DNA from: Sandaracinus amylolyticus
Lineage (GTDB): Bacteria > Myxococcota_A > Polyangia > Polyangiales > Sandaracinaceae
DNA length: 64,000 nt
Direction of reading: 5' to 3'
NCBI RefSeq assembly: GCF_021631985.1
Contig: NZ_CP070225.1
Span: 2,728,001-2,792,000 of the forward strand
Shown here: piece after piece, positions 9,386-63,298 of the stretch
Numbering within the stretch: the stretch's first letter is position 1
Layout: each line of letters starts with the position of its first letter
The notes under the pieces: generated by a model
What the model was told of the DNA's origin: nothing
Databases searched by the model: none
What the model saw: the letters and a program-made list of their open reading frames with translations, nothing else
Translations under genes and position numbers: made by a program

Positions 9386-10555
9386 TCAGGCCGCCGCGAG
9401 CCTCGGCACGAAGGGCGTGCGGGTGCGCGCGACGCTGATCATCGCGCCGAGGAGCTTGCGCATCGCAGCGATGATCGCGAGCTTCTTCGGCTTTCCGGCC
9501 GCGACCAGGCGCCCGTAGAACGCCTTGAGCCACGGGTTGTGGGTCACCGCTCGCAGCGTCGGCATCCAGAGCTTCGCGCGCAGGTCGGCGTCGCCCATCG
9601 TGCAGGCGGGGCCTCGCAGTGGCTGGCGCTTGCCTGAGTGGCTCACGATCGGGGCGACGCCGACGTACGCCGCGAGCGCGGCCGCGCTCTTGAACGCGTC
9701 GAAGTCGATCGAGGCGATCATCCGCGCCGCGGTGTTGTCGCCGACGCCGTCGATGGTGGTCAGCAGCTTGCCGACCTCGTGGCGCTCGAGGCTCTGGCCG
9801 ATGTCGTCGTCGAGCTTCTTGATCCGCGCTCGGAGCGTCGCGATGTCCTCGCACGCGTAGCGGATCTGAAGCTCGTACGCCGTGCCCTGGTGGCGGCCCA
9901 CGGAGGTCTTCGCAGCCGCGCAGAGCGCTTGCGCGAGCTCGACACCGATGACGTGGCGGCCGTCGTACTTCAGCTCCGCCAGCGCGTTCGGGTCGGCAGC
10001 ACGGAAGGCCTCGGCGGTCGGACTCGCGATGAGCAGCGTGGTCGCTTTGGCCGAAGCCACGTCGCGCACGTGCTCGGTGAACTCCGGAAAACAGAGGTCG
10101 AGCGCGCGGTGCAGTTGCCGCGTGCGGTCGCCGAGGTCCTGCACGAGGCGGTCGCGAAGCCGGATCAGCTCACGCAGCTCGAGCGTGGCCTCATCGGGCA
10201 TCGGGGTCGCCGCAGGTCTCTTCTGCTGCGCGAAGCGTGCGATGCCCAGAGCGTCGAGCGCGTCGGTCTTCGCGCGCCGCAGATCCTCGGCTGCAAACCG
10301 CGACGTGCGCGTCGGGTTCAACAGCGCGACCTGAAACCCTGCTGCATGCAGGAACGCGAAGAGGTTCTGCCAATAGTGCCCCGTCGCCTCCATCGCGATG
10401 AACGCGTCGGCGGGCTCACCGAGCATCGAGCGCAGTCGTTCGTAGCCCGACGCGTCTTCGGAGAACGGCGTCGGCTTCCGCAGTGCCTTGCCCGCCTCGT
10501 CCACGATCGCGACGACGTGCTTCTCCGAACCGATGTCGATCCCGACGAATCTCAT
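9386..10555 (-). CDS. IS110-family transposase
   Basis: This 389-aa recombinase appears intact. The N-terminal DEDD (RuvC-like) domain starts with VGIDIGSEKHVVAIVDE (Asp7), followed by FIAMEATGHYW with the catalytic Glu and KTDALDALGIARFA with further acidic residues. The C-terminal Transposase_20 domain has a helix-hairpin-helix (TTIDGVGDNTAARMIASI) and YVGVAPIVSHSGKRQ, which holds the region of the conserved Ser. The ATG at 10555 (MRFVGID) aligns with family starts; the frame extends 49 codons further upstream without homology. It probably moves by IS110-type recombination between two DNA sites. Confidence 0.95.
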   Translation of the reverse strand: MRFVGIDIGSEKHVVAIVDEAGKALRKPTPFSEDASGYERLRSMLGEPADAFIAMEATGHYWQNLFAFLHAAGFQVALLNPTRTSRFAAEDLRRAKTDALDALGIARFAQQKRPAATPMPDEATLELRELIRLRDRLVQDLGDRTRQLHRALDLCFPEFTEHVRDVASAKATTLLIASPTAEAFRAADPNALAELKYDGRHVIGVELAQALCAAAKTSVGRHQGTAYELQIRYACEDIATLRARIKKLDDDIGQSLERHEVGKLLTTIDGVGDNTAARMIASIDFDAFKSAAALAAYVGVAPIVSHSGKRQPLRGPACTMGDADLRAKLWMPTLRAVTHNPWLKAFYGRLVAAGKPKKLAIIAAMRKLLGAMISVARTRTPFVPRLAAA

Positions 10556-10795
10556 GTGCCTCTCGAGCTCGTGTTCGCGTCCCCGGGAGCCTCGGAGCCG
10601 AGCTTCGTGCCCTTGCTTGTCCATGCGAGGACGGTGGACGAGCCACGCCTCTGGATACCGTTCGAGCAAAGAAACTCGGTCGAGGGCGCCAATCTCAGTC
10701 ACGGGGACGATGCCCCAAGCCCTACGCGGCGACCCTCTCCCGAAACCGCTGGACCGGCAGCCCTACCACGGCGGGCAATCGGCCGGTGCACTAGA
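10556..10795 (-). ncRNA. Candidate IS110 left-end non-coding (bridge-type) RNA region
   Basis: About 240 bp upstream of the transposase start contains no gene. In IS110-group elements this end encodes a structured guide RNA read in the same direction as the transposase. Hairpins visible on the minus strand include GGGG-CATCGT-CCCC (10703-10716) and an AGCTCG.../CGAG-GCT stem near 10590-10605. This is inference from family architecture; no guide loops were matched to the flanks. Confidence 0.25.
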
Positions 10796-27580: not shown

Positions 27581-29536
27581 ATGTGCGGCATCTCGGGGAT
27601 CTGGTCGATCGATGGGCGAGGGGATGCGCTCCGCGCGCGGGCCGCGGTCATTCGCGATTCGATCGCGCATCGCGGTCCTGACGACGCGGGCGAGTGGGAG
27701 GAGACGACGTGCGGGCTCGTGTTGGGCCAGCGACGCCTGTCGATCCTCGACCTCTCGCCGCTCGGGCATCAGCCGATGGTGTCGGCCTCGGGCCGCTACG
27801 TCGTCGTGTTCAACGGCGAGATCTACAACCATCTGCGCATTCGTGCGGAGCTCCCCGACGTTGCGTTCCGCGGCACGTCGGACACCGAGACGCTGCTCGC
27901 CGCGATCGAGCGCTGGGGCCTCGAGGGCGCGCTCTCGCGCTTCGTCGGGATGTTCGCGATCGCGCTGTGGGATCGCGAGGCGCGCACGCTGCAGCTCGTG
28001 CGCGATCGCCTCGGCATCAAGCCGCTCTACTGGGGGCGCACGACGCGCGGCGATCTGCTCTTCGGCTCGGAGCTGCGCGCGCTGCGGACGCACCCCGAGT
28101 TCGACACGACGATCGATCGCGAAGCGCTCACCGCGTACTTCGAGACGAGCTGTGTCCCGGCACCGCTCTCGATCCACCGCGCCGCGCGCAAGCTCGAGCC
28201 CGGGACGATCCTGACGTTCCGCGCGCCGCAGCGCGATCCCCAAGCGACGCGCTACTGGCGCGTGGAGGACGTCGCACACGACGGACTTCGGGATCCGCTC
28301 CGCGACTCCGAGCCGGAGATCCTGGAGCGCATCGAGGAGACGCTCCGGGACGCGGTGCGCCTGCGCCTCCTGTCGGACGTGCCGCTCGGCGCGTTCCTCT
28401 CGGGAGGCATCGACTCCTCGCTGGTCGTCGCGATCGCGCAAGAGCTCTCGAGCGCGCCGCTCCGCACGTATTCGATCGGCAGCACGGACGCGGCGTACGA
28501 CGAGTCGGCGTTCGCGTCGGAGGTCGCGCGTCGCCTCGGGACCCGGCACACGGCGCTCACCGTCCGCGACGCCGAGGCCCGCGAGATCGTGCCGCAGCTG
28601 GCTTCGATCTACGACGAGCCGTTCGCCGACAGCTCGCAGATCCCGACGTTCCTCGTCTCGCGTCTCGCGCGCAACGACGTCACGGTCGCGCTCTCGGGCG
28701 ACGGCGGAGACGAGCTCTTCGGCGGGTACAACCGGTACCTGTGGGCACCGCGCCTCGCGCGCGTCCAGTCGGTCCCGCGTGCCGCGCGCCGGGTCGCAGC
28801 GGCAGCGCTGGAGCTGCTGCCGACGAGCGCGTGGGACTCCATCCACGCGCACCTCAGTCCTCCGCTGCCGCCAGTGCGGCTCGTCGGCGACAAGCTGCAC
28901 AAGGGTGCTCGCGTGCTGCGCACGGGCTCGATCGACGAGATGTACGCCGCTCTGCGTCGGCAGTGGTGGCCCTCGCCCGTGCTCGACGTGCTGACACCCG
29001 ACGAGGCCGTGCACGCCGGGCGTACGTTCGACGCGGCACATGCGCTGATGCTCCGGGATGCTGCCGCGTACCTGCCGGACGACATCCTCACGAAGGTCGA
29101 CCGTGCGAGCATGGCAGTCGCGCTCGAGGCGCGGGTTCCGATCCTGGACCACCGTGTCGTCGAGCTCGCGTGGCGTGTTCCGATGCGGATGAAGATCCGC
29201 GACGGGAAGGGCAAATGGGCCCTCCGCGAGCTGCTCGCCAAGCGACTTCCGCGTGACGTGTTCGAGCGCCCGAAGACCGGGTTCAGCGTGCCCGTCGGCG
29301 CGTGGCTCCGCGGTCCGCTGCGCGACTGGGCCGAGTCCCTGCTGGACGCGAAGTCGCTCGAGTCCGCAGGGCTCGATGCGCGGCTCGTGCGTGCGCGCTG
29401 GCAGGCGCATCAGGAGGGCGCAGCCGACGCCGGTCTCGCGCTCTGGGACGTGCTCGCATTCGCGGCGTGGCAGCGGGAGATCGAGCGAGGCGTACGCGCG
29501 GAGGCGAGAGATCCGTTCGCGAGGAGCTCGGCGTGA
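27581..29536 (+). CDS. asnB: Asparagine synthase (glutamine-hydrolysing) family amidotransferase
   Basis: This 651-aa protein has an intact class II glutamine amidotransferase domain (Cys2 in MCGISGIW, AHRGPDDAGEW, VVFNGEIYNH) and a synthetase domain with the PP-loop LSGGIDSSLVVAIA near residue 275 and SGDGGDELFGGYNRYLW. Inside exopolysaccharide loci such enzymes often amidate uronic acids (WbpS-like) rather than make free asparagine. The uronic-acid donor genes downstream support that reading but do not prove it. It starts 9 bp after the Wzc-like gene and overlaps the next by 4 bp. Confidence 0.9.
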   Translation: MCGISGIWSIDGRGDALRARAAVIRDSIAHRGPDDAGEWEETTCGLVLGQRRLSILDLSPLGHQPMVSASGRYVVVFNGEIYNHLRIRAELPDVAFRGTSDTETLLAAIERWGLEGALSRFVGMFAIALWDREARTLQLVRDRLGIKPLYWGRTTRGDLLFGSELRALRTHPEFDTTIDREALTAYFETSCVPAPLSIHRAARKLEPGTILTFRAPQRDPQATRYWRVEDVAHDGLRDPLRDSEPEILERIEETLRDAVRLRLLSDVPLGAFLSGGIDSSLVVAIAQELSSAPLRTYSIGSTDAAYDESAFASEVARRLGTRHTALTVRDAEAREIVPQLASIYDEPFADSSQIPTFLVSRLARNDVTVALSGDGGDELFGGYNRYLWAPRLARVQSVPRAARRVAAAALELLPTSAWDSIHAHLSPPLPPVRLVGDKLHKGARVLRTGSIDEMYAALRRQWWPSPVLDVLTPDEAVHAGRTFDAAHALMLRDAAAYLPDDILTKVDRASMAVALEARVPILDHRVVELAWRVPMRMKIRDGKGKWALRELLAKRLPRDVFERPKTGFSVPVGAWLRGPLRDWAESLLDAKSLESAGLDARLVRARWQAHQEGAADAGLALWDVLAFAAWQREIERGVRAEARDPFARSSA

Positions 29537-55431: not shown

Positions 55432-55523
55432 GAATCAGCGGGTTTCGTAGACGCTGCCGGCGGGCTCTGCAACCAGCGTATATGTCCTCTGCGAATGCGG
55501 TCGAGGAAGCCGAGAGGACGCGT

Positions 55524-57173
55524 GTGAGCATCGCATCGACCTTTGCGATCCTACGCCGACTGGGTGGAGCGCGTGCGGACTGGGCGCGCGCTGCCGCGCT
55601 GGGTGTGCTCGCGGCGGTCGCGGAGATCGTGCTCGCTCTCGCTTTCGCCGCGCTCGCCCGCGGGGCGTCGGACGGCGGGACCTCGACGGCCGCACTCTGG
55701 CCGGTGGCGCTGGCGCTCGGCGGTGCCGCGGCCGGGCGCGTCTGCGTGGGGATCGCCATCCATCACCTGACGGCCACGAGCGCGGTCGAAGCGTCACGCG
55801 CGCTGCGTCGGGTGGGCTTGGATGTCGCGCTGCGCGCCGATGCGCGGGGGCTCGAGCCCGCGACGGATGTGCTCTCGCGCTGGATCGAGCGCGTGCCGCG
55901 CGCGACGCAGGCGCGACAGGCATCGGTCGGGCTCGTCGCGTGGTCGGTCCAGTCCCTGTGCCTCGGTGCGCTGGTGATCGTGAAGGCGCCCTCGATCGGG
56001 CTCGCGATGATCGCGGTCCTGATCGCCAGCGGCGCGATCGCGGCGCTGCTCGCGCGGCGCGTGCGGCGCATCGCACGCGGTCTGGCGCCGGCGCAGCGTC
56101 GCATCGCGAGCACCCTCGAGCGCGTGACGCGCCGCGCGTGGGAAATCCGCGCGCTGCGGACCGTCGCCATCGAGCGCGCGCGGCTCGCGCGGGACGTCGA
56201 CGCACACGCCGAGGAGCAGACGCGTGTCGCGACGGCGAGCGCGCTCGCGAGCGCATCCCCGCTGCTGCCGGCCCTGCTGGCGATCGGTGCGCTCGCGAGC
56301 GCGGGGCTCGCATCGGGCCTCGCGCTCGCGGATCTCGTCGCGATGCTCTACGCGCTCGTGCGGCTCGCGTCGTCGCTGACCGCCGCGGGGCACGCGATCG
56401 GCGCGCTCTCCGCAGCGGGCCCGGCGCTCGAGGAGATCGCGCGCGAGGTGCCGCTCGGGAGCGACACCGCCGCAGCAGCGCGCGCCGAGACGAGCGCGCC
56501 GTGCGCGATCGCGCTGGAGAACGTGCGCGTCACCGTGGGCGATCGCGTCGTGCTGCACGACGTGAATCTCGACGTCGCGCCGGGCGAGATCGTGGGGCTC
56601 GTGGGACCGAGTGGGGTCGGCAAGACGACGCTGCTGCGCGCGGTGCTCGGCGTGATCGAGCCTGCTGCGGGACGGGTGCGCATCGACGGGATCGCGCCGG
56701 CGGACTGGTCGCTGCGTGGCGGGCGGCTCGGCCTGGTCACCGCCGAGCCGATGCTCTTCGCCGGGACGCTGCGCGAGAACGTCGCGTACGGGAGCTCGCA
56801 GGTCGACGACGACGCGCTCCTGCGCGCGCTCGCTCGTGCGAGGGCGTCGAGCGTCGCGGGGCAGGGCCTCGACCGCGTGCTCGGCGAGGGAGGCGAGGGC
56901 GTCTCGAGCGGTGAGCGCCAGCGTGTCGCCCTCGCGCGCGCGCTCGTCGGCGATCCCGACCTTCTGGTGCTCGACGAGCCGACCTCGGCGCTCGACACGA
57001 CGCTCGAGCAGGAGATCGCCGCGCTGCTGCGCGATTGTTCGGGGCGATGCACGGTGCTCGTCGCCACCCACCGCGCGGCGCTCCTGAGCGCCTGCGATCG
57101 TGTCGTCGAGGTCGTGCCCGACGACCGCGGCGCGACAGTGATCGAGCGCGCGCGCGACGCGAGGAGCGCGTGA
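55524..57173 (+). CDS. ABC transporter, membrane domain fused to ATPase (peptide/lipid exporter type)
   Basis: This protein of about 549 aa has an N-terminal ABC membrane domain with ~6 segments and a C-terminal ATPase. Walker A is GLVGPSGVGKTTLLRAVLG, the signature is EGVSSGERQRVALARAL and Walker B is LLVLDEPTSALD. No C39 peptidase domain precedes it, so it would not cleave a leader itself. GTG at 55524 has GAGAGGA well placed; ATG at 55482 is in frame but lacks a ribosome binding site. It overlaps the PqqD-like gene by 4 bp, so it belongs to the peptide-modification locus. ATPase confidence is high; substrate is inferred. Confidence 0.85.
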   Translation: MSIASTFAILRRLGGARADWARAAALGVLAAVAEIVLALAFAALARGASDGGTSTAALWPVALALGGAAAGRVCVGIAIHHLTATSAVEASRALRRVGLDVALRADARGLEPATDVLSRWIERVPRATQARQASVGLVAWSVQSLCLGALVIVKAPSIGLAMIAVLIASGAIAALLARRVRRIARGLAPAQRRIASTLERVTRRAWEIRALRTVAIERARLARDVDAHAEEQTRVATASALASASPLLPALLAIGALASAGLASGLALADLVAMLYALVRLASSLTAAGHAIGALSAAGPALEEIAREVPLGSDTAAAARAETSAPCAIALENVRVTVGDRVVLHDVNLDVAPGEIVGLVGPSGVGKTTLLRAVLGVIEPAAGRVRIDGIAPADWSLRGGRLGLVTAEPMLFAGTLRENVAYGSSQVDDDALLRALARARASSVAGQGLDRVLGEGGEGVSSGERQRVALARALVGDPDLLVLDEPTSALDTTLEQEIAALLRDCSGRCTVLVATHRAALLSACDRVVEVVPDDRGATVIERARDARSA

Positions 57174-57442
57174 ACGAGCACGCGAAGCTGACCCACGCGC
57201 CTCGCGCGGTCGCGCGTCGGGTCGCGGGGCGCATGGTGGTCGTGACGTTGCCCGGCCTCGAGACGCGCGTGCTGAACGAAGTGGGCGCGCGCGTGGTCGA
57301 GCTCGCCGACGGGCGCACGTTGGGCGAGATCGTCGACGTGATCACCCGCGAGCTGGATGCGGACCGCGAGGTCGTGCGCTCCGACGTCCACGAGTTCGTG
57401 ATCGAGCTCGTGCGCGAAGGGGTGCTCAGCGCGGACGCGTAG
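57170..57442 (+). CDS. PqqD-like protein (RiPP recognition element) 1
   Basis: This 90-aa PqqD-family protein reads LTHAPRAVARRVAGRMVVVTLPGLETRVLNEVGARVVELADGRTLGEIVDVITRELDADREVVRSDVHEFVIELVREGVL. It has the winged-helix RRE pattern (short strands, NEVGARVVELADG turn, two helices, C-terminal hydrophobic helix). RREs bind leader peptides and present them to modifying enzymes. GTG at 57170 overlaps the ABC transporter stop and has GAGGAG 3 nt before. Its 3' end overlaps the converging kinase gene by 17 bp. Confidence 0.8.
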   Translation: MNEHAKLTHAPRAVARRVAGRMVVVTLPGLETRVLNEVGARVVELADGRTLGEIVDVITRELDADREVVRSDVHEFVIELVREGVLSADA

Positions 57443-58343
57443 CGAGCCACGCGCGCAGCAGCTGCGGGACGACGAGCGGGTCCTCGAGCGCGTCCGGGCC
57501 CGCGACGAGACGCGCCGCGGGGAGGGTTGCGAGGTCGGCGAGGATGTCGATCATCGCGTCGCGATGCGGCGTTCCCGGCACGACGGCGAGCGCGCTCGAC
57601 CCGAGGAGCGTCGCGAACACTGCGGCAGGCTCGACGGGCTCGACGCGAGTGCGCGCGCCGCGCTCGATGCTCGGGATCACGATGGCGTCGACACGCGAGG
57701 GCGACGCGGGCCCTGGAGACGGCGCGCGCACCCGCGTCTTCGCGACGCTGCCATCGAGGACGGGCCCGAGCGCTTCGAGATCGGGATGCGCAGCGCGCGT
57801 CTCGTCGCTGACGTGCGGAGGCCGCCGGATCGGCCACGCCACGCGATGGGCGTCGACGTACGCCGCGTCGTCGCACGCCAGCACGCCACCACCGCGAGCG
57901 ACCGCGAGCGCAGCGCTCGTCTTCCCCGACCCCGACCCGCCCGGGAGCAGGACCGTCGCGCCGTCGAGATGCACGACCGCGGCGTGGGTGTGCACCAGGC
58001 CCGCGTGGGCCGCGACGACGTGGAGCGCGATCGCGGCGGGCAGCCCGCTCGGCCCGTCCACGCGTCCCTGCAGTCCGTGAGGCGTCACCCGGAGCTCGGC
58101 GTGCGGGCTCCACACGATCACCGCATCGGGCTCGAGGACGAGCCGGGCAGGCCCGTAGAACGCCGCATACCGCGCGGGCGCCCGAGGGATCGCGCCGCGC
58201 TCCACGACCCACGGGTAGACCGCGATGCCTTCGCGACCAACCGCCGCGCCGAGGTGCTCGAGGCCGCCGCTCGCGCCCGCGGGCTCGTCGGGCACGTCCC
58301 ACGCGACGCTCAACGCGCCGAGCCGAGCCTCACCCCGGGGCAT
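57426..58343 (-). CDS. HprK-like (HPr kinase-related) kinase
   Basis: This 305-aa protein has a divergent N-terminal half and a C-terminal HPr-kinase-like core. The P-loop is LLPGGSGSGKTSAALAVARGGGVLACDDAAYV (Lys141, with an acidic pair near 155). The long HPr-binding C-terminal helices of true HprK/P are not obvious, and no PTS genes are near. Related kinases occur in lasso-peptide clusters, where they phosphorylate the peptide, and in the so-called HPr-rel-A gene sets with PqqD-like proteins. It overlaps PqqD-2 by 14 bp, so translational coupling is likely. Confidence 0.75.
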   Translation of the reverse strand: MPRGEARLGALSVAWDVPDEPAGASGGLEHLGAAVGREGIAVYPWVVERGAIPRAPARYAAFYGPARLVLEPDAVIVWSPHAELRVTPHGLQGRVDGPSGLPAAIALHVVAAHAGLVHTHAAVVHLDGATVLLPGGSGSGKTSAALAVARGGGVLACDDAAYVDAHRVAWPIRRPPHVSDETRAAHPDLEALGPVLDGSVAKTRVRAPSPGPASPSRVDAIVIPSIERGARTRVEPVEPAAVFATLLGSSALAVVPGTPHRDAMIDILADLATLPAARLVAGPDALEDPLVVPQLLRAWLATRPR

Positions 58344-58617
58344 CCGCGGGGTCGACCACGTCGATCAATCCGAGCTTCTGAAGCTCGTCGAGCCACGTCT
58401 CAGTGTCGGCCCGAGCGACATCGACCCCGACGTCGAAGACGCGCACGAGCATCGCCGCGAGCTCGTCGAGCGTCGCCGGAGCCGTGAGCGCGGACCAGAG
58501 GGCCTCGCCCGTCTCGTTCAGCGTGAAGTACGCCTTCGAGGCGGGGTCCAGGACGACCCCGCCTCGCGGCAGCTTGGTGTGGATCGCGCGCGTCGACGCG
58601 CGCCAGCGACGCGTCAC
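58330..58617 (-). CDS. PqqD-like protein (RiPP recognition element) 2
   Basis: This 95-aa PqqD-family protein reads HTKLPRGGVVLDPASKAYFTLNETGEALWSALTAPATLDELAAMLVRVFDV...WLDELQKLGLIDV. The AYFTLNETGEALWSAL segment is a textbook PqqD/RRE signature, clearer than in copy 1. GTG start at 58617, one base from the stop of the propeller lipoprotein gene; it overlaps the HprK-like gene. Two different RREs in one locus suggests two enzymes or two peptides are served. Confidence 0.85.
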   Translation of the reverse strand: MTRRWRASTRAIHTKLPRGGVVLDPASKAYFTLNETGEALWSALTAPATLDELAAMLVRVFDVGVDVARADTETWLDELQKLGLIDVVDPADAPG

Positions 58618-58618
58618 G

Positions 58619-60688
58619 TCAGCGCGCGTCGATGGGCTGCTGGGGACGGGGATCGCCCACGGCGCTGACGAACAAGCCGCTGGTGCTCAGCGGGCCCCAG
58701 TTCGTCGGCGTGGCGAAGTACGCGACGTAGCCCGCCTCCGCCTCGCTCGGGTACGAGAGCCCGAGCCGCAGGTCCCCGCTCTGGATCGCGCCGGAGACCG
58801 GCACGAACGGCGTATCGGGCATCAGCTGGATCGTGCTGGCCACCCAGCAGCGGCGAAGGTCGTTCGCCGGGGGCGCGGCGATCGGCGCGGTGGTGTCGCA
58901 GACGTAGATCTGAGTGCCCGGCGCGTTGAAGCCCGAATGGCTCTGCGACGGGACCAGACCGGCCGTGCCGTTCCCGCGGAACGCGATGAACCGACCGCTC
59001 GGCGAGAGCGACGGGATGCCATAGCTGTTCGCGCCGGCGCTGACCGCTGCCCCGGCCGGGTTGGCCGTCACGACCTCGAGCCCGCCGACGCCTTCGCTCG
59101 CGCTCGCACGCACGACGCGCCCGCAGGTGTCCGTGCAGAACGCGACCACGCTCCCGTCGCCGGAGATGCCGGTGTGCGACGGCGCCGTCACGGTCGGGGT
59201 GATCGGATAGAGCACGACCGACCCGGTGAGCGACTCACTGTGATCGTAGACGTAGACGTCCTGGGTCGCGTCGGTGTCCAACGCGGGGTCGAGCTGCCCG
59301 CCCGCGATGAACACGATGCGCTGTCCGTCGTCGCTCACGTCGGCGTAACGAATGGGGTCGCCGTTCGCGCAGGCGGCGTAGCGCGCCGTCGTCGGAGTGT
59401 AGAAGTCCGAGCCGCGGATCGCGCTGACGTGGTGGATCTCGCCCGTCGTCGCGTCGTAGCGATACACGTCGGGACAGCCGCGACCGTTCGGAACGGTCTG
59501 CCCGACGAGGTTCCGCGCCTGGCTCTGGAACACGATCACGGAGCCGTCGCTGTTCAGCCTCGGGAACCGGCTCGCCTGGTTTCCGGCCCCGCCGCCCGTG
59601 GCGGTTGACACGAGCGTGCCGGTTCCGGCGCTTCCGTACTCGTAGCGGTAGATCTGCGACTGTCCCGCGACCGGACATCCGGCCGCCTCGTACGCGAGCA
59701 CCGAGCCGTCGTCCGAGAGGTCGATGTTGAGGACCGACGTGCAGCCCGTCACCAGCGTCGAGACCGCGCCGGAGGCGGAGGTGAGGTCCTTCCGGTGCAC
59801 GGTGCCACCGACGACGTACGCAGCGAACTGCCCGTTCGCCGACAGCGCAATCCCGCGCCCGCTCGTCGGCACGATCGCGGTGTTGGTGGGGTAGGGCCCC
59901 GCGCCGGGATTGTCGCGCGCGCCGTCGGCGAGGCTCGCGCGAACGGTCGGGGTCACGAGCAGTCCGCGGACCTGCACGACGAAGCGGAACGTGAACGTCG
60001 TCCCGGCGGTCGTCCCGCGGAACCCCCAGCGCATCGTCGCGGTGTTGGCGACCGTGGTGCTCGCGCGGCCGAGCTCACCGAACCGGAAGAGCCCGTTCGC
60101 GACCGGCGGGGCGGCGAGCCCGAAGTCCGGCGTCGCGATCTGGAGCGCGTTCGGCACGATCTCGGCGGAGGTCGTGTCGCCCGTCGGCACGAGCTCCAGC
60201 ATCTCGGCGTACGCACGCTCGACCTGCTGGTTCGTGTACAGGCTGCGGAGGCGCACGCCCTGGCAGACGCCGGACAGCGAGCCCGTCGGCTGACTGCCGC
60301 ACGCCGCGACCCACGAGCCCGAGGTCAGCGCGCCGTTCAACACGGTGCCGCGCTCACCGGCGACGTTTCCGAACGTCACGTACCCATTGCCGGTACACGT
60401 CGTGGTCGTGCACGACTGCGACGGGATGTCGACCAACGGCTCCACCGCGACGCCCACCGCCGGGCTCGGATCCACGAGCCCCTCCGGGGTGAGGATGCGG
60501 TAGCTGAGCTCCTCGCCGTCGAACTCACCTTCGATCACTTGGATCACCGGCAGGTCCTCGACGTCGATCGCGCGTGGCCTCGTCGGCTCCGCGGCGTCGG
60601 GCGCGCACGCCGTCAAACCAGCGGCGGGAAGCCCGACGAGCGCGAGGACCAGGGCCGCTGCGCGGCGACGCGACGAGTGACGTTGCAT
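58619..60688 (-). CDS. Secreted TolB/WD40-like beta-propeller lipoprotein
   Basis: This 689-aa protein has a signal peptide with lipobox LTAC (Cys28). Residues about 30-290 form an all-beta domain with several Cys pairs (SQSCTTTTCTGNGYV, AACGSQPTGSLSGVCQG). From about 290 the PD40/TolB-type blades appear (GIALSANGQFAAYVVGGTVHRKDL, DLSDDGSVLAYEAAG, RLNSDGSVIVFQSQARNLVG, DVSDDGQRIVFIAGG, SPSGRFIAFRGNG). The ATG at 60688 has GGAGGGAG upstream. It lies between the radical SAM and RRE genes, so it may be linked to the peptide system, perhaps as a surface receptor; this is inferred only from position. Confidence 0.75.
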   Translation of the reverse strand: MQRHSSRRRAAALVLALVGLPAAGLTACAPDAAEPTRPRAIDVEDLPVIQVIEGEFDGEELSYRILTPEGLVDPSPAVGVAVEPLVDIPSQSCTTTTCTGNGYVTFGNVAGERGTVLNGALTSGSWVAACGSQPTGSLSGVCQGVRLRSLYTNQQVERAYAEMLELVPTGDTTSAEIVPNALQIATPDFGLAAPPVANGLFRFGELGRASTTVANTATMRWGFRGTTAGTTFTFRFVVQVRGLLVTPTVRASLADGARDNPGAGPYPTNTAIVPTSGRGIALSANGQFAAYVVGGTVHRKDLTSASGAVSTLVTGCTSVLNIDLSDDGSVLAYEAAGCPVAGQSQIYRYEYGSAGTGTLVSTATGGGAGNQASRFPRLNSDGSVIVFQSQARNLVGQTVPNGRGCPDVYRYDATTGEIHHVSAIRGSDFYTPTTARYAACANGDPIRYADVSDDGQRIVFIAGGQLDPALDTDATQDVYVYDHSESLTGSVVLYPITPTVTAPSHTGISGDGSVVAFCTDTCGRVVRASASEGVGGLEVVTANPAGAAVSAGANSYGIPSLSPSGRFIAFRGNGTAGLVPSQSHSGFNAPGTQIYVCDTTAPIAAPPANDLRRCWVASTIQLMPDTPFVPVSGAIQSGDLRLGLSYPSEAEAGYVAYFATPTNWGPLSTSGLFVSAVGDPRPQQPIDAR

Positions 60689-60792
60689 GCGATTCTCCCT
60701 CCGGCGGGCGCTCCGCTCCCAACCCCAGTTGCGTGCGAGCATAACACGTTCACAGAAAATTCGATGAGGGGCGTTCAACCCTACGCGCGTGT

Positions 60793-61845
60793 TCAGCGCG
60801 CGACGGGCAGGGCCCGCTTCGCGCCGCCTCGGGCGTGGTGTAGCGCACCCCTCCATCGTGGCCGCTCGGCGTCGGGCCCATCGCGACCATCGACCGACCA
60901 ATGCGGGCGACCGAAGCGTCGGAGGCACGAATTGCATTGGTGGTCGCGCCACGGCCCGGTCGCATCCGTCGAACGCGCAAGGATCTCGTTCTGTTGGATC
61001 TCGACGAGCGCCTCTCGGAGCGCACCCAACCCGCGACTCGCGTCTCCCACCACGCTCGGATCCGTGCCGCGATGCGGGACCTGCGAGTGCAAGCAGCAGA
61101 GCGTGAGCCGTCCGTGCACGTCGACGTGCAAGGTCTCGCCGCGAAGGGGGCCGCACAGCGCCGGCGCATCGTCCGCCGAGGGCCATCCCGTCGTCGTCAG
61201 CACCGGGAGCGCCACGCGCGCTCGGAGCGCTCGGACTCGCGCGTCGACGCTGCGCCAGGCATCGGGATCGAGCCGCAGCCCGTCGTCGAGGGGCGTCCCG
61301 GTCGCCTGCATTGCGCCGAAGCGGACCCACGCGGCGCCGAGCGCCTCGGCCTCTGCCGCGATCGCCTCGATCTCGTCGACGTTCCTGGCGTGGATCGTCG
61401 TCGTGATCCCGAACGGCACACCGAGCGCGACCGACACCGAGGCCGCGCTCAGCACTTCGCGACGCTGGCCGGCGCCCCTGATCGAGTCGTGCGTCGCGTC
61501 GGACGCACCGTCGAGGCTCAGCGCGATCCAGCGACACGCGTCTCGGCGCGCCGGTGCCTCGTCGAGCCAGAGCGCGACACGCTCGAACCGTCGGCCGTTC
61601 GAGACCATGTCCCAACGCATCCCGTGAGCGACGACGAGATCGAGGATCGCCGGGAAGTCGGGATGCAGCGTCGGCTCACCACCCGTCAGTGACGCGTGCC
61701 GAATGCCGAGCTCGGTCGCTGCTTCGGCGAGCACGGCCGCGATGGTCGCCAGGGGCAGGTCGACCGGTTGCGTGCCGGGGTCACGCAGGCAGTGATCGCA
61801 GTCGAGCTGGCAGCGATCCGTCAGGTGGAACCCGACGCGCTGCAC
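60793..61845 (-). CDS. Radical SAM enzyme with SPASM-like C-terminus
   Basis: This 350-aa protein has the [4Fe-4S] motif C12-x3-C16-x2-C19 (TDRCQLDCDHC), then ASLTGGEPTLHPDF (GGE motif) and WIALSLDGASDATHDSIRG. The C-terminal region carries further Cys (ALCGPLRG, LTLCCLHSQ, HQCNSCLRRFG), consistent with an auxiliary cluster as in SPASM/twitch peptide-modifying enzymes. GTG at 61845 was chosen: GAGGAG, lying inside the 3' end of the small upstream gene, is 7 nt away. It starts 4 bp after the candidate precursor stop, so the peptide and enzyme are translationally coupled. Confidence 0.85.
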   Translation of the reverse strand: MQRVGFHLTDRCQLDCDHCLRDPGTQPVDLPLATIAAVLAEAATELGIRHASLTGGEPTLHPDFPAILDLVVAHGMRWDMVSNGRRFERVALWLDEAPARRDACRWIALSLDGASDATHDSIRGAGQRREVLSAASVSVALGVPFGITTTIHARNVDEIEAIAAEAEALGAAWVRFGAMQATGTPLDDGLRLDPDAWRSVDARVRALRARVALPVLTTTGWPSADDAPALCGPLRGETLHVDVHGRLTLCCLHSQVPHRGTDPSVVGDASRGLGALREALVEIQQNEILARSTDATGPWRDHQCNSCLRRFGRPHWSVDGRDGPDAERPRWRGALHHARGGAKRALPVAR

Positions 61846-61849
61846 GTGC

Positions 61850-62044
61850 TCACTCCTCGCCGGGACCGAAGATGTCCTCGGTGCCCGAGGTCGGTTGGAG
61901 CGTGTTCGAAGCGATGGGGATGCGGCGCTCGATCCGCGGCGACTCGTACGCCCTGCGGCCGTTCGACTTCGACTCCGTGGTCGTCGTGTCCGCCGCGCGG
62001 TCGTCCGCGTTCTTCCCCTCTCGCATCGTGGCCCCGTTCTGCAT
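61850..62044 (-). CDS. Candidate RiPP precursor peptide (64 aa, Y-x-x-P-x-I leader motif)
   Basis: This 64-aa peptide has no Cys or Trp. The leader is polar and charged (Thr/Asp/Lys-rich, residues 1-30). The motif Y33-x-x-P36-x-I38 (AYESPRIERR) matches the Y-x-x-P-x-L element of lasso leaders that RREs bind. The C-terminal part runs RIPIASNTLQPTSG to TEDIFGPGEE. Its only aromatic is Phe59. ATG at 62044 is used; ATG at 62026 would give 58 aa. It is placed directly before the radical SAM gene, as precursor genes usually are. Identity as a precursor is inference. Confidence 0.65.
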   Translation of the reverse strand: MQNGATMREGKNADDRAADTTTTESKSNGRRAYESPRIERRIPIASNTLQPTSGTEDIFGPGEE

Positions 62045-62080
62045 GGACCGTGTAGTTGTGTCAAGAGAGGCAATCGTTCG

Positions 62081-62932
62081 ATGGACGAGCGCGAAATCGC
62101 TGCAGCGATGGCCGTCGTCGCGGGGCGTGAGCTGCTCGCGCGCGCCGCGGACGCGCTGGCGACGGTCGACGTCGTGCCGGTCGCTCTGAAGGGAGTCGTG
62201 CTGTCGGCGCTCTCGGAGGGTTGGGGGGCTCCGCCGCGTCGGATGCTCGATGTCGACGTCCTCGTGAGGCCGCGCGAGCGGGACGTCGCGGAGCGGGCAT
62301 TGGCTGCCGCGGGGCTCGAGCCGGTGGCTCGCTCGGCGGTCGCGACGACGATGCGCTCGAGCGAGCTGGGGCTCGATCTCGATCTCCACGCGGCGCTGGT
62401 CGAGCCCGAGCTGTTCCAGCTCGACACGGAGGGTCTGGTCGAGCGGGCCGAGGACGCCTCGGCGCTGTTCGGACATCCGGTCCTCGTGCTCGAGCGCCAC
62501 GACATGTACGCGCACCTCGTCGCGCACTTCGCACGCAATCGCTCGAACGTGCGGGACCAGCGACGCCTCGGCGATTTCTCGATCGTCGCCCGCGCGCTCC
62601 CGATGCGCCCCGAGGTCCTCGCGACGCACCTCGTCGATCGAGGGCTCGCGCGTGCGGCGCGCTACGCGTTGGCGCTGGCGTCGCGCCAGGGCGATCGGTT
62701 CGCGGCGTCGGTCCTGTCGGCGCTGCCTCGAGACACGGTCGGCGCGATCGTCGCGCGTGGCGCCGAATCCTGGCTCTCGGCGCACGCCGGCAACGCGCCG
62801 CTCGCCGTGCCCGCGCTGCACGCGCTCAATCACTCGCTGCCCGCGGGAATGCGCTCGCTGACCGCCCACGCGACCCGTGCTCTGGCGTCACGTGCGCGGC
62901 GGGTGCTCGAACGTGCGGCAGAATCGCGGTGA
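62081..62932 (+). CDS. Nucleotidyltransferase-like protein (NTP_transf_5 type)
   Basis: This 283-aa protein has VALKGVVLSALSEGWGAPPRRMLDVDVLVRPRERDVAERAL. The LKG segment and D57-x-D59 metal pair match the NTP_transf_5 family seen next to HprK-like kinases, B2 proteases and RREs in lasso-peptide and related loci. Downstream, HDMYAHLVAHFARNRSNVRDQRRLGDF is also typical. The AMP/NMP-transfer substrate is unknown. It diverges from the precursor gene over only 36 bp and overlaps the B2-like gene tail-to-tail by 45 bp. AAGAGAGG lies 10 nt before the ATG. Confidence 0.8.
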   Translation: MDEREIAAAMAVVAGRELLARAADALATVDVVPVALKGVVLSALSEGWGAPPRRMLDVDVLVRPRERDVAERALAAAGLEPVARSAVATTMRSSELGLDLDLHAALVEPELFQLDTEGLVERAEDASALFGHPVLVLERHDMYAHLVAHFARNRSNVRDQRRLGDFSIVARALPMRPEVLATHLVDRGLARAARYALALASRQGDRFAASVLSALPRDTVGAIVARGAESWLSAHAGNAPLAVPALHALNHSLPAGMRSLTAHATRALASRARRVLERAAESR

Positions 62933-63298
62933 GCCCGGCTCGAGGAACGGCGCGCCGTCCAGCTCGAGCCACGCGTGCCCGCTCGCGACGTCGTCCTCGT
63001 CGACGCCCATCACGAACCGCGGCGCGTAGCCCGACTCCCGGAGCAACGCGTAGCGCGCGAGGGCTCGGTAGAGACAGGTGTCCGGGCCGATCGCGCATCG
63101 ACGGCTCACGCCCTCGCCGAAGGCGATGCCCGCCGTGACGTCCTCGCGCGTCAGCGTTGCGCGTGCGGTCGGCCGATCGAGCGAGGCGAGCAGCGCATCG
63201 AGCGGGTCCGAACGAAATCGCCGAACGACGTCGATGCGCAGCGCGACGTATCGCGCTGCGCATCGAGCACGTCGGACGGCGGTCCGGATCAGCGGCAA
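62888..63298 (-). CDS. Lasso-type B2 (McjB C-terminal/transglutaminase core 3) cysteine protease
   Basis: This protein of about 136 aa has the catalytic triad Cys75 (IGPDTCLYRALARYALLRESGY), His108 (ASGHAWLELDG) and Asp114. The region APRFVMGVDEDDVASGHAWLEL is a close pattern match to lasso B2 leader peptidases. There is no ATG or GTG at the right place; TTG at 63298, inside the end of the upstream MopE-like gene, gives the expected length. The exact start is therefore uncertain. It would remove the leader from the modified peptide. Confidence 0.8.
   Translation of the reverse strand: MPLIRTAVRRARCAARYVALRIDVVRRFRSDPLDALLASLDRPTARATLTREDVTAGIAFGEGVSRRCAIGPDTCLYRALARYALLRESGYAPRFVMGVDEDDVASGHAWLELDGAPFLEPGSPRFCRTFEHPPRT

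Follow-up and report, generated by a model that had tools for sequence, protein, structure and literature searches.

The 64,000-nucleotide stretch of Sandaracinus amylolyticus DNA analysed here (the window; contig NZ_CP070225.1, positions 2,728,001 to 2,792,000) includes, near its end, nine genes that probably form a biosynthetic cassette for a ribosomally synthesised and post-translationally modified peptide (RiPP). The cassette would be a sister to those for linear polyphosphorylated peptides (LPP) and phosphorylated lasso peptides, using a lasso B2-type leader peptidase and adding a step catalysed by a radical S-adenosylmethionine (SAM) enzyme. This reading draws on the genes, namely the precursor family, the type of RiPP recognition element (RRE), the enzyme motifs, linkage and selection. 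As expected for a RiPP, a short precursor gene is linked to modifying enzymes and encodes a conserved leader and a variable core. The conserved precursor, merely implied in the first-pass annotation of the window, is the strongest part of the case.

Gene linkage and the precursor peptide

Homologues of the radical SAM enzyme were found in 14 of 97 relatives and, across the order, in 25 of 184 genomes. Profiles built on the proteins of the window were then run over stretches of up to 20 kb around each gene. The first-pass annotation would have been refuted by scattered genes in related genomes or by the lack of a conserved small peptide beside the radical SAM gene, and it passed this test: B2, RRE and HprK-like kinase genes were close to a radical SAM gene in all 25 genomes carrying one. 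The small peptide gene postulated beside the radical SAM gene was likewise found near it in all 25. The fetched stretches also included an NTP_transf_5 nucleotidyltransferase gene in 16 genomes and an ATP-binding cassette (ABC) transporter gene in 17. Because PF13471 (B2) occurs just twice in the whole 10.96-Mb genome, its constant adjacency is not due to chance; the set of parts recurs non-randomly. Several of the 25 genomes are closely related and thus do not represent 25 independent events. In G002, a third member of the genus, the cassette is divided between two contigs; a second, partial copy is present in G130. In the window, the genes for the ABC exporter, the RRE that comes first in position and the NTP_transf_5 protein are on the forward strand, and those for the precursor, radical SAM enzyme, beta-propeller protein, the other RRE, kinase and B2 protease are on the reverse strand. 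With genes on both strands, the set is not a single operon.

The short open reading frame (ORF) near the radical SAM gene lies immediately before it in nearly all genomes. The encoded peptides share the pattern Y0xxP3[RK][ILV]5...T15-L16-x17-[ST]18; the tail beyond it varies and is 7-28 residues long. In the window precursor, the leader comprises about residues 1-49, including the RRE motif Y33-xx-P36-x-I38 (61931-61948) and T48-L49 (61898-61903), and the predicted core, QPTSGTEDIFGPGEE, corresponds to residues 50-64 (bases 61853-61897). The precursors of relatives include a TLLSGMGAMSVGVISMMN-type sequence.

The full motif was found 24 times within 1.5 kb of a radical SAM gene on its strand, as against three times in the rest of the 854,421 six-frame residues. 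As Y0 and P3 had been built into the initial search pattern, their invariance follows in part from the search itself; this does not apply to L16 and [ST]18. The motif, fixed beforehand, was then met in two held-out genomes of another order, ~2 kb from the radical SAM gene and with B2, RRE, kinase and ABC genes nearby; as these two genomes are near-identical, they amount to about one independent case. Thr is present at Y+15 in 19 of the 23 unique precursor sequences and Ser or Thr at Y+18 in 22, with Thr rather than Ser at the latter position in seven. Outside the RRE motif, constancy is confined to T15-L16-x-[ST]18. Between the window and the sister species, the last 35 precursor codons show three synonymous and no amino-acid changes, and the N-terminal half differs. 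The other cassette genes gave ratios of nonsynonymous to synonymous substitution rates (dN/dS) of ~0.13-0.38 in the same comparison, and the cassette enzymes are all under purifying selection.

Peptides of other types were also observed by related radical SAM genes. Brocadia (L035:8738-8947), Anammoxibacter (L037:8726-8923) and a myxococcotal genome (L152:159-356) have in common a precursor-like peptide in which the [FY]xEPxL leader is doubled and the tail reads GFFxxF-P; it may represent a second product family. In Gemmatimonadota (L041:1826-2155, L047:3844-4113 and L057:5247-5483), the peptides have the form W[VI]xPx[VI]xxLPRLxxLTLQT, and positions +15 and +18 are once more Thr. In G130, there are two radical SAM-precursor pairs (L145 and L146), only one of which has B2, RRE and kinase genes nearby, and this machinery may serve both.

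All nine cassette genes were located by Pfam and NCBIfam scans, with catalytic motifs intact where examined. These scans bore out the accessory parts named in the first-pass annotation (RRE, B2 protease, ABC exporter, HprK-like kinase and nucleotidyltransferase). The features are as follows.

55482-57173, forward: ABC exporter (permease and ATPase); Pfam/NCBIfam
57170-57442, forward: second RRE, PqqD family, observed in this genus only; Pfam/NCBIfam
57426-58343, reverse: HprK-like kinase, predicted target Ser/Thr at the core start; sub-cut-off Pfam match, AlphaFold2 (AF2) model, conserved motifs
58330-58617, reverse: lasso/LPP-type RRE (PqqD family), the copy kept in all relatives; Pfam/NCBIfam, profile comparison
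58619-60688, reverse: PD40 beta-propeller protein, N-terminus lipoprotein-like, at most an accessory part; Pfam
60793-61845, reverse: radical SAM enzyme of an unnamed family; Pfam (72 bits), CX3CX2C and twitch-like auxiliary-cluster cysteines
61850-62044, reverse: precursor peptide gene (64 aa); leader motif common to all 25 genomes
62081-62932, forward: NTP_transf_5 nucleotidyltransferase (alternative start 62108), predicted phosphate decoration; 75 bits
62888-63298, reverse: cysteine leader peptidase of the lasso B2 type, exact start uncertain; 45 bits (cut-off 33)
20743-55431: adjoining exopolysaccharide locus, context outside the cassette; gene content

Modifying enzymes and proposed maturation

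The enzyme described earlier as SPASM-like was confirmed as a radical SAM enzyme, and its auxiliary cysteines are better called twitch-like. Besides the CX3CX2C core, it includes C231-x13-G-x4-CC (C250C251) and C304-x2-C307, which are invariant also in relatives from other phyla, and the pattern would fit a twitch-like domain holding one auxiliary cluster. The AF2 model (predicted local distance difference test score, pLDDT, 78.6) resembles BlsE, SkfB, PqqE and SuiB, several of which modify peptides, and the top solved relative by sequence profile is PqqE. In a scan of the NCBIfam models, no family claimed the enzyme, the best match being ScmF. Identity with the anti-phage protein viperin was rejected, as the PADLOC matches span the generic core only and the NCBIfam viperin model gave 52 bits against a cut-off of 180. 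In the tree, the enzymes of single-radical-SAM cassettes form one branch (93/94), apart from the branches holding ScmE and ScmF. Within it, a well-supported subgroup (98/100) includes Planctomycetota, Acidobacteriota, Gemmatimonadota and others, whose cassettes also have HprK and RRE genes, sometimes together with B2 and NTP_transf_5, and encode similar leaders. The logic of the cassette therefore reaches well beyond this order.

The conserved RRE gave its best profile matches to the solved lasso RREs TbiB1 and TfuB1, then to PbaB1 and LppB, and matched PqqD weakly; by this comparison, it is of the lasso/LPP type. Both of the RREs reported earlier are present in the window, but the pair is a trait of this genus and other genomes have one. 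The kinase fell under the Pfam cut-off (20.4 against 33.3 bits), and its AF2 model (pLDDT 78.9) matches the PEPCK/HprK kinase fold. Among the homologues, the DD motif is present in 33 of 33 and the P-loop Lys in 97%. The G002 kinase (L030, 3229-4290) has the P-loop GGTGSGQT, with Gln for the usual Lys, and may be an inactive copy or an assembly error. The Cys and His of the B2 protease are kept in all 29 homologues, and the DxD region of NTP_transf_5 is 95% conserved.

A maturation route can be proposed from the domains and their characterised counterparts. The RRE would bind the leader at Y33xxPxI and present the precursor to the radical SAM enzyme, which would introduce a radical modification, the likeliest site being the leader/core junction or just past it. 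This site is favoured because T15-L16-x-[ST]18 are the sole constant residues outside the RRE motif; it is a guess, and one more apt to be wrong than right. The HprK-like kinase would phosphorylate Ser/Thr near the core start, at Y+18 in nearly all relatives and probably at T52 or S53 here, and NTP_transf_5 may decorate that phosphate, as in pseudomycoidin. Cleavage of the leader after T48 or L49 is predicted for B2, and the ABC transporter would export the product, whose probable site of action is the cell surface, beside the exopolysaccharide of the adjoining locus. A bolder form of this proposal is possible, with the balance tipping somewhat against it: a new RiPP class in which the radical SAM enzyme, in place of the lasso cyclase, would install the class-defining bond in a phosphorylated, phosphate-capped lasso-type precursor, giving a surface peptide linked to exopolysaccharide, with the same logic in Brocadiales, Acidobacteriota and Gemmatimonadota.

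Several observations weigh against the assignment as a RiPP cassette with a radical SAM step. In the window and the sister species, Y+18 is Pro, followed by Thr-Ser (T-L-Q-P-T-S-G), so that the S-G pair is displaced by two; the usual T-L-L-S-G is present in G002. The cores have no obvious radical target residue in common, and NTP_transf_5 and ABC genes were not found near the radical SAM gene in 8-9 of the 25 genomes. Clear exopolysaccharide genes occur near ~6 other cassettes, a minority of the relatives.

Alternative readings and related pathways

The first-pass annotation had also offered a radical-SAM version of the HPr-rel-A/PqqD gene sets. That idea was abandoned and membership rejected, as the kinase scored 28 bits against 200 for HprK_rel_A (TIGR04352) and the RRE 30 against 35 for PqqD_rel_X (TIGR04353), with the RRE nearest to those of the lasso/LPP type. 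A looser version, in which an HPr-rel-A-like or regulatory exopolysaccharide module uses its kinase, RRE and nucleotidyltransferase on a protein or sugar substrate and the small ORF serves only as a regulator, is improbable. The cassette does abut a large exopolysaccharide locus, and these weak matches exist, but neither score reaches its cut-off, no recognisable exopolysaccharide locus surrounds most of the relatives, and the B2 protease, radical SAM enzyme, exporter and leader/core peptide point to maturation and export.

The closest published relative of the proposed RiPP cassette is the LPP pathway, encoded by the Paenibacillus lpp cluster described in May 2026, which combines an RRE, HprK, NTP transferase and exporter, includes no cyclase and is found in capsule loci (PMC13381572). 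In LppA, the leader Tyr is residue -16, cleavage occurs after T-1 (Y+15), and LppK phosphorylates S3 (Y+18) (PMC13381572). The cassettes analysed here likewise have a lasso-like RRE, HprK-like kinase, NTP transferase and ABC exporter, lack a cyclase and, in the window, neighbour an exopolysaccharide locus; their precursors share the leader Tyr and mostly have Thr at Y+15. Y+18, where LPP has its proven phosphorylated Ser, is Ser or Thr in all of them except the sequence of the window and the sister species, which has Pro. However, the LPP peptidase is of the SpI type (SipW-like), whereas a B2 cysteine protease is present here, no radical SAM enzyme was reported for LPP, and the cores are short, about 9-30 residues after Y+16 as compared with 45 in LppA. 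No SpI/SipW-like peptidase was noticed at the cassettes, in scans not aimed at SpI peptidases. Since a Ser-to-Thr change in LppA abolished phosphorylation (PMC13381572) and 7 of the 23 sequences here have Thr, the specificity of the kinase would have to differ.

A plain LPP-type phosphopeptide pathway, with the radical SAM enzyme having no role on the peptide and, for example, maturing another protein, would accommodate the kinase, RRE, nucleotidyltransferase, exporter and Y+18 Ser. This is quite improbable given that the radical SAM gene is directly beside the precursor gene in nearly all genomes and that it is with this gene that the precursor recurs; moreover, the second radical SAM-precursor pair of G130 (L145) has no kinase, RRE or B2 gene in its fetched stretch.

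The phosphorylated lasso peptides paeninodin and pseudomycoidin share with the cassette an RRE, B2, HprK-like kinase, NTP_transf_5, ABC exporter and YxxPx[LIV]...T leader, and the paeninodin cluster, like that of LPP, also sits in a capsule locus. In lasso leaders, Tyr is commonly found at -17 and Thr at -2, which gives the spacing seen here. In contrast, the cassette has a radical SAM enzyme and no macrolactam cyclase, and phosphorylation is predicted near the core start rather than at a C-terminal Ser as in paeninodin. The absence of the cyclase, with a radical SAM enzyme instead, had been pointed out earlier and is strongly supported: no PF00733 match lies inside any of the 25 cassettes, those in the same genomes being outside, and the radical SAM gene is linked in all 25. 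A lasso cluster whose cyclase lies elsewhere in the genome, with the radical SAM enzyme as one more tailoring enzyme, would fit the lasso-type leader, RRE, B2, kinase and exporter, all of which are present, and the E7/D8 of the window core. Yet most cores have neither an acidic acceptor at positions 7-9 nor a suitable residue 1, and the Asn-synthase at 27581-29536 scored 562 bits with an exopolysaccharide amidotransferase model as against 200 bits (cut-off 525) with the lasso cyclase model and is, on this evidence, an exopolysaccharide-type amidotransferase. This very improbable reading was rejected on the positions of PF00733 and these scores.

SynChlorMet (NCBIfam TIGR04248-TIGR04251) has similar kinds of parts, namely the radical SAM pair ScmE/ScmF, PqqD-like ScmD, HprK-like ScmC and YxxPx[LV]-leader peptides, and ScmF is the best NCBIfam match of the enzyme studied here, but membership was rejected as scarcely credible: SynChlorMet has two radical SAM enzymes of other families rather than one, no B2 and repeat-type cysteine-containing tails, the window-type enzymes scored 77-92 bits against a cut-off of 400 (true ScmE/ScmF neighbours 361-607), no ScmE and ScmF pair passed the curated cut-offs, and the tree branches are separate. 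At SynChlorMet-type loci (L048:12481-12741, L051, L053, L054 and L058), small ORFs whose products begin with YxxPx[LV] and end in repeats containing cysteine are candidate precursors of that cassette. In pyrroloquinoline quinone (PQQ) biosynthesis (PqqA/PqqD/PqqE), a stand-alone RRE also serves a peptide-modifying radical SAM enzyme, but the kinase, B2 and nucleotidyltransferase are present only here, the RRE is nearer to lasso B1 than to PqqD, and the cores have no shared Glu/Tyr pair.

The cassette was filed under neither lasso nor LPP because the former fails on the cyclase and the latter, as defined, centres on the SpI peptidase. A text search on SynChlorMet, HPr-rel-A, and HprK with radical SAM and RiPP returned no paper, and a cassette with radical SAM, HprK and B2 was not described in the openly accessible literature searched. 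Across these papers and the NCBIfam models scanned, the earlier view of an undescribed locus thus holds for the radical SAM cassette, but with LPP published, lasso-like phosphopeptides made without a cyclase are no longer a novelty as such. The cassette suggests that lasso-type recognition and protease parts, with the kinase/nucleotidyltransferase pair, are a portable chassis for a cyclase, no such enzyme or a radical SAM enzyme. With more than 20 precursor sequences and an exact predicted phospho-site supplied, the role of HprK/NTP_transf_5 pairs beside polysaccharide loci is directly testable outside Bacillota.

Exopolysaccharide locus and accessory genes

The cassette begins 50 bp from the last gene of a Wzx/Wzy-type exopolysaccharide locus, which occupies 20.7-55.4 kb of the window and includes NeuB and cytidylyltransferase genes. 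The beta-propeller placed inside the unit by the first-pass annotation is present as a PD40 protein with a lipoprotein-like start, but was rejected as a core component, as most related cassettes are without it. Two paralogous propeller proteins flank the cassette in this genus (58619-60688 in the window and L018:13374-15593, just past the window end), and a few other genomes also have a relative within the cassette. Distant from the cassette, the protein predicted at 9386-10624 (reverse strand), which starts FVGIDIGSEKHVVAIVDEAGKALRK, may be an IS110-type transposase.

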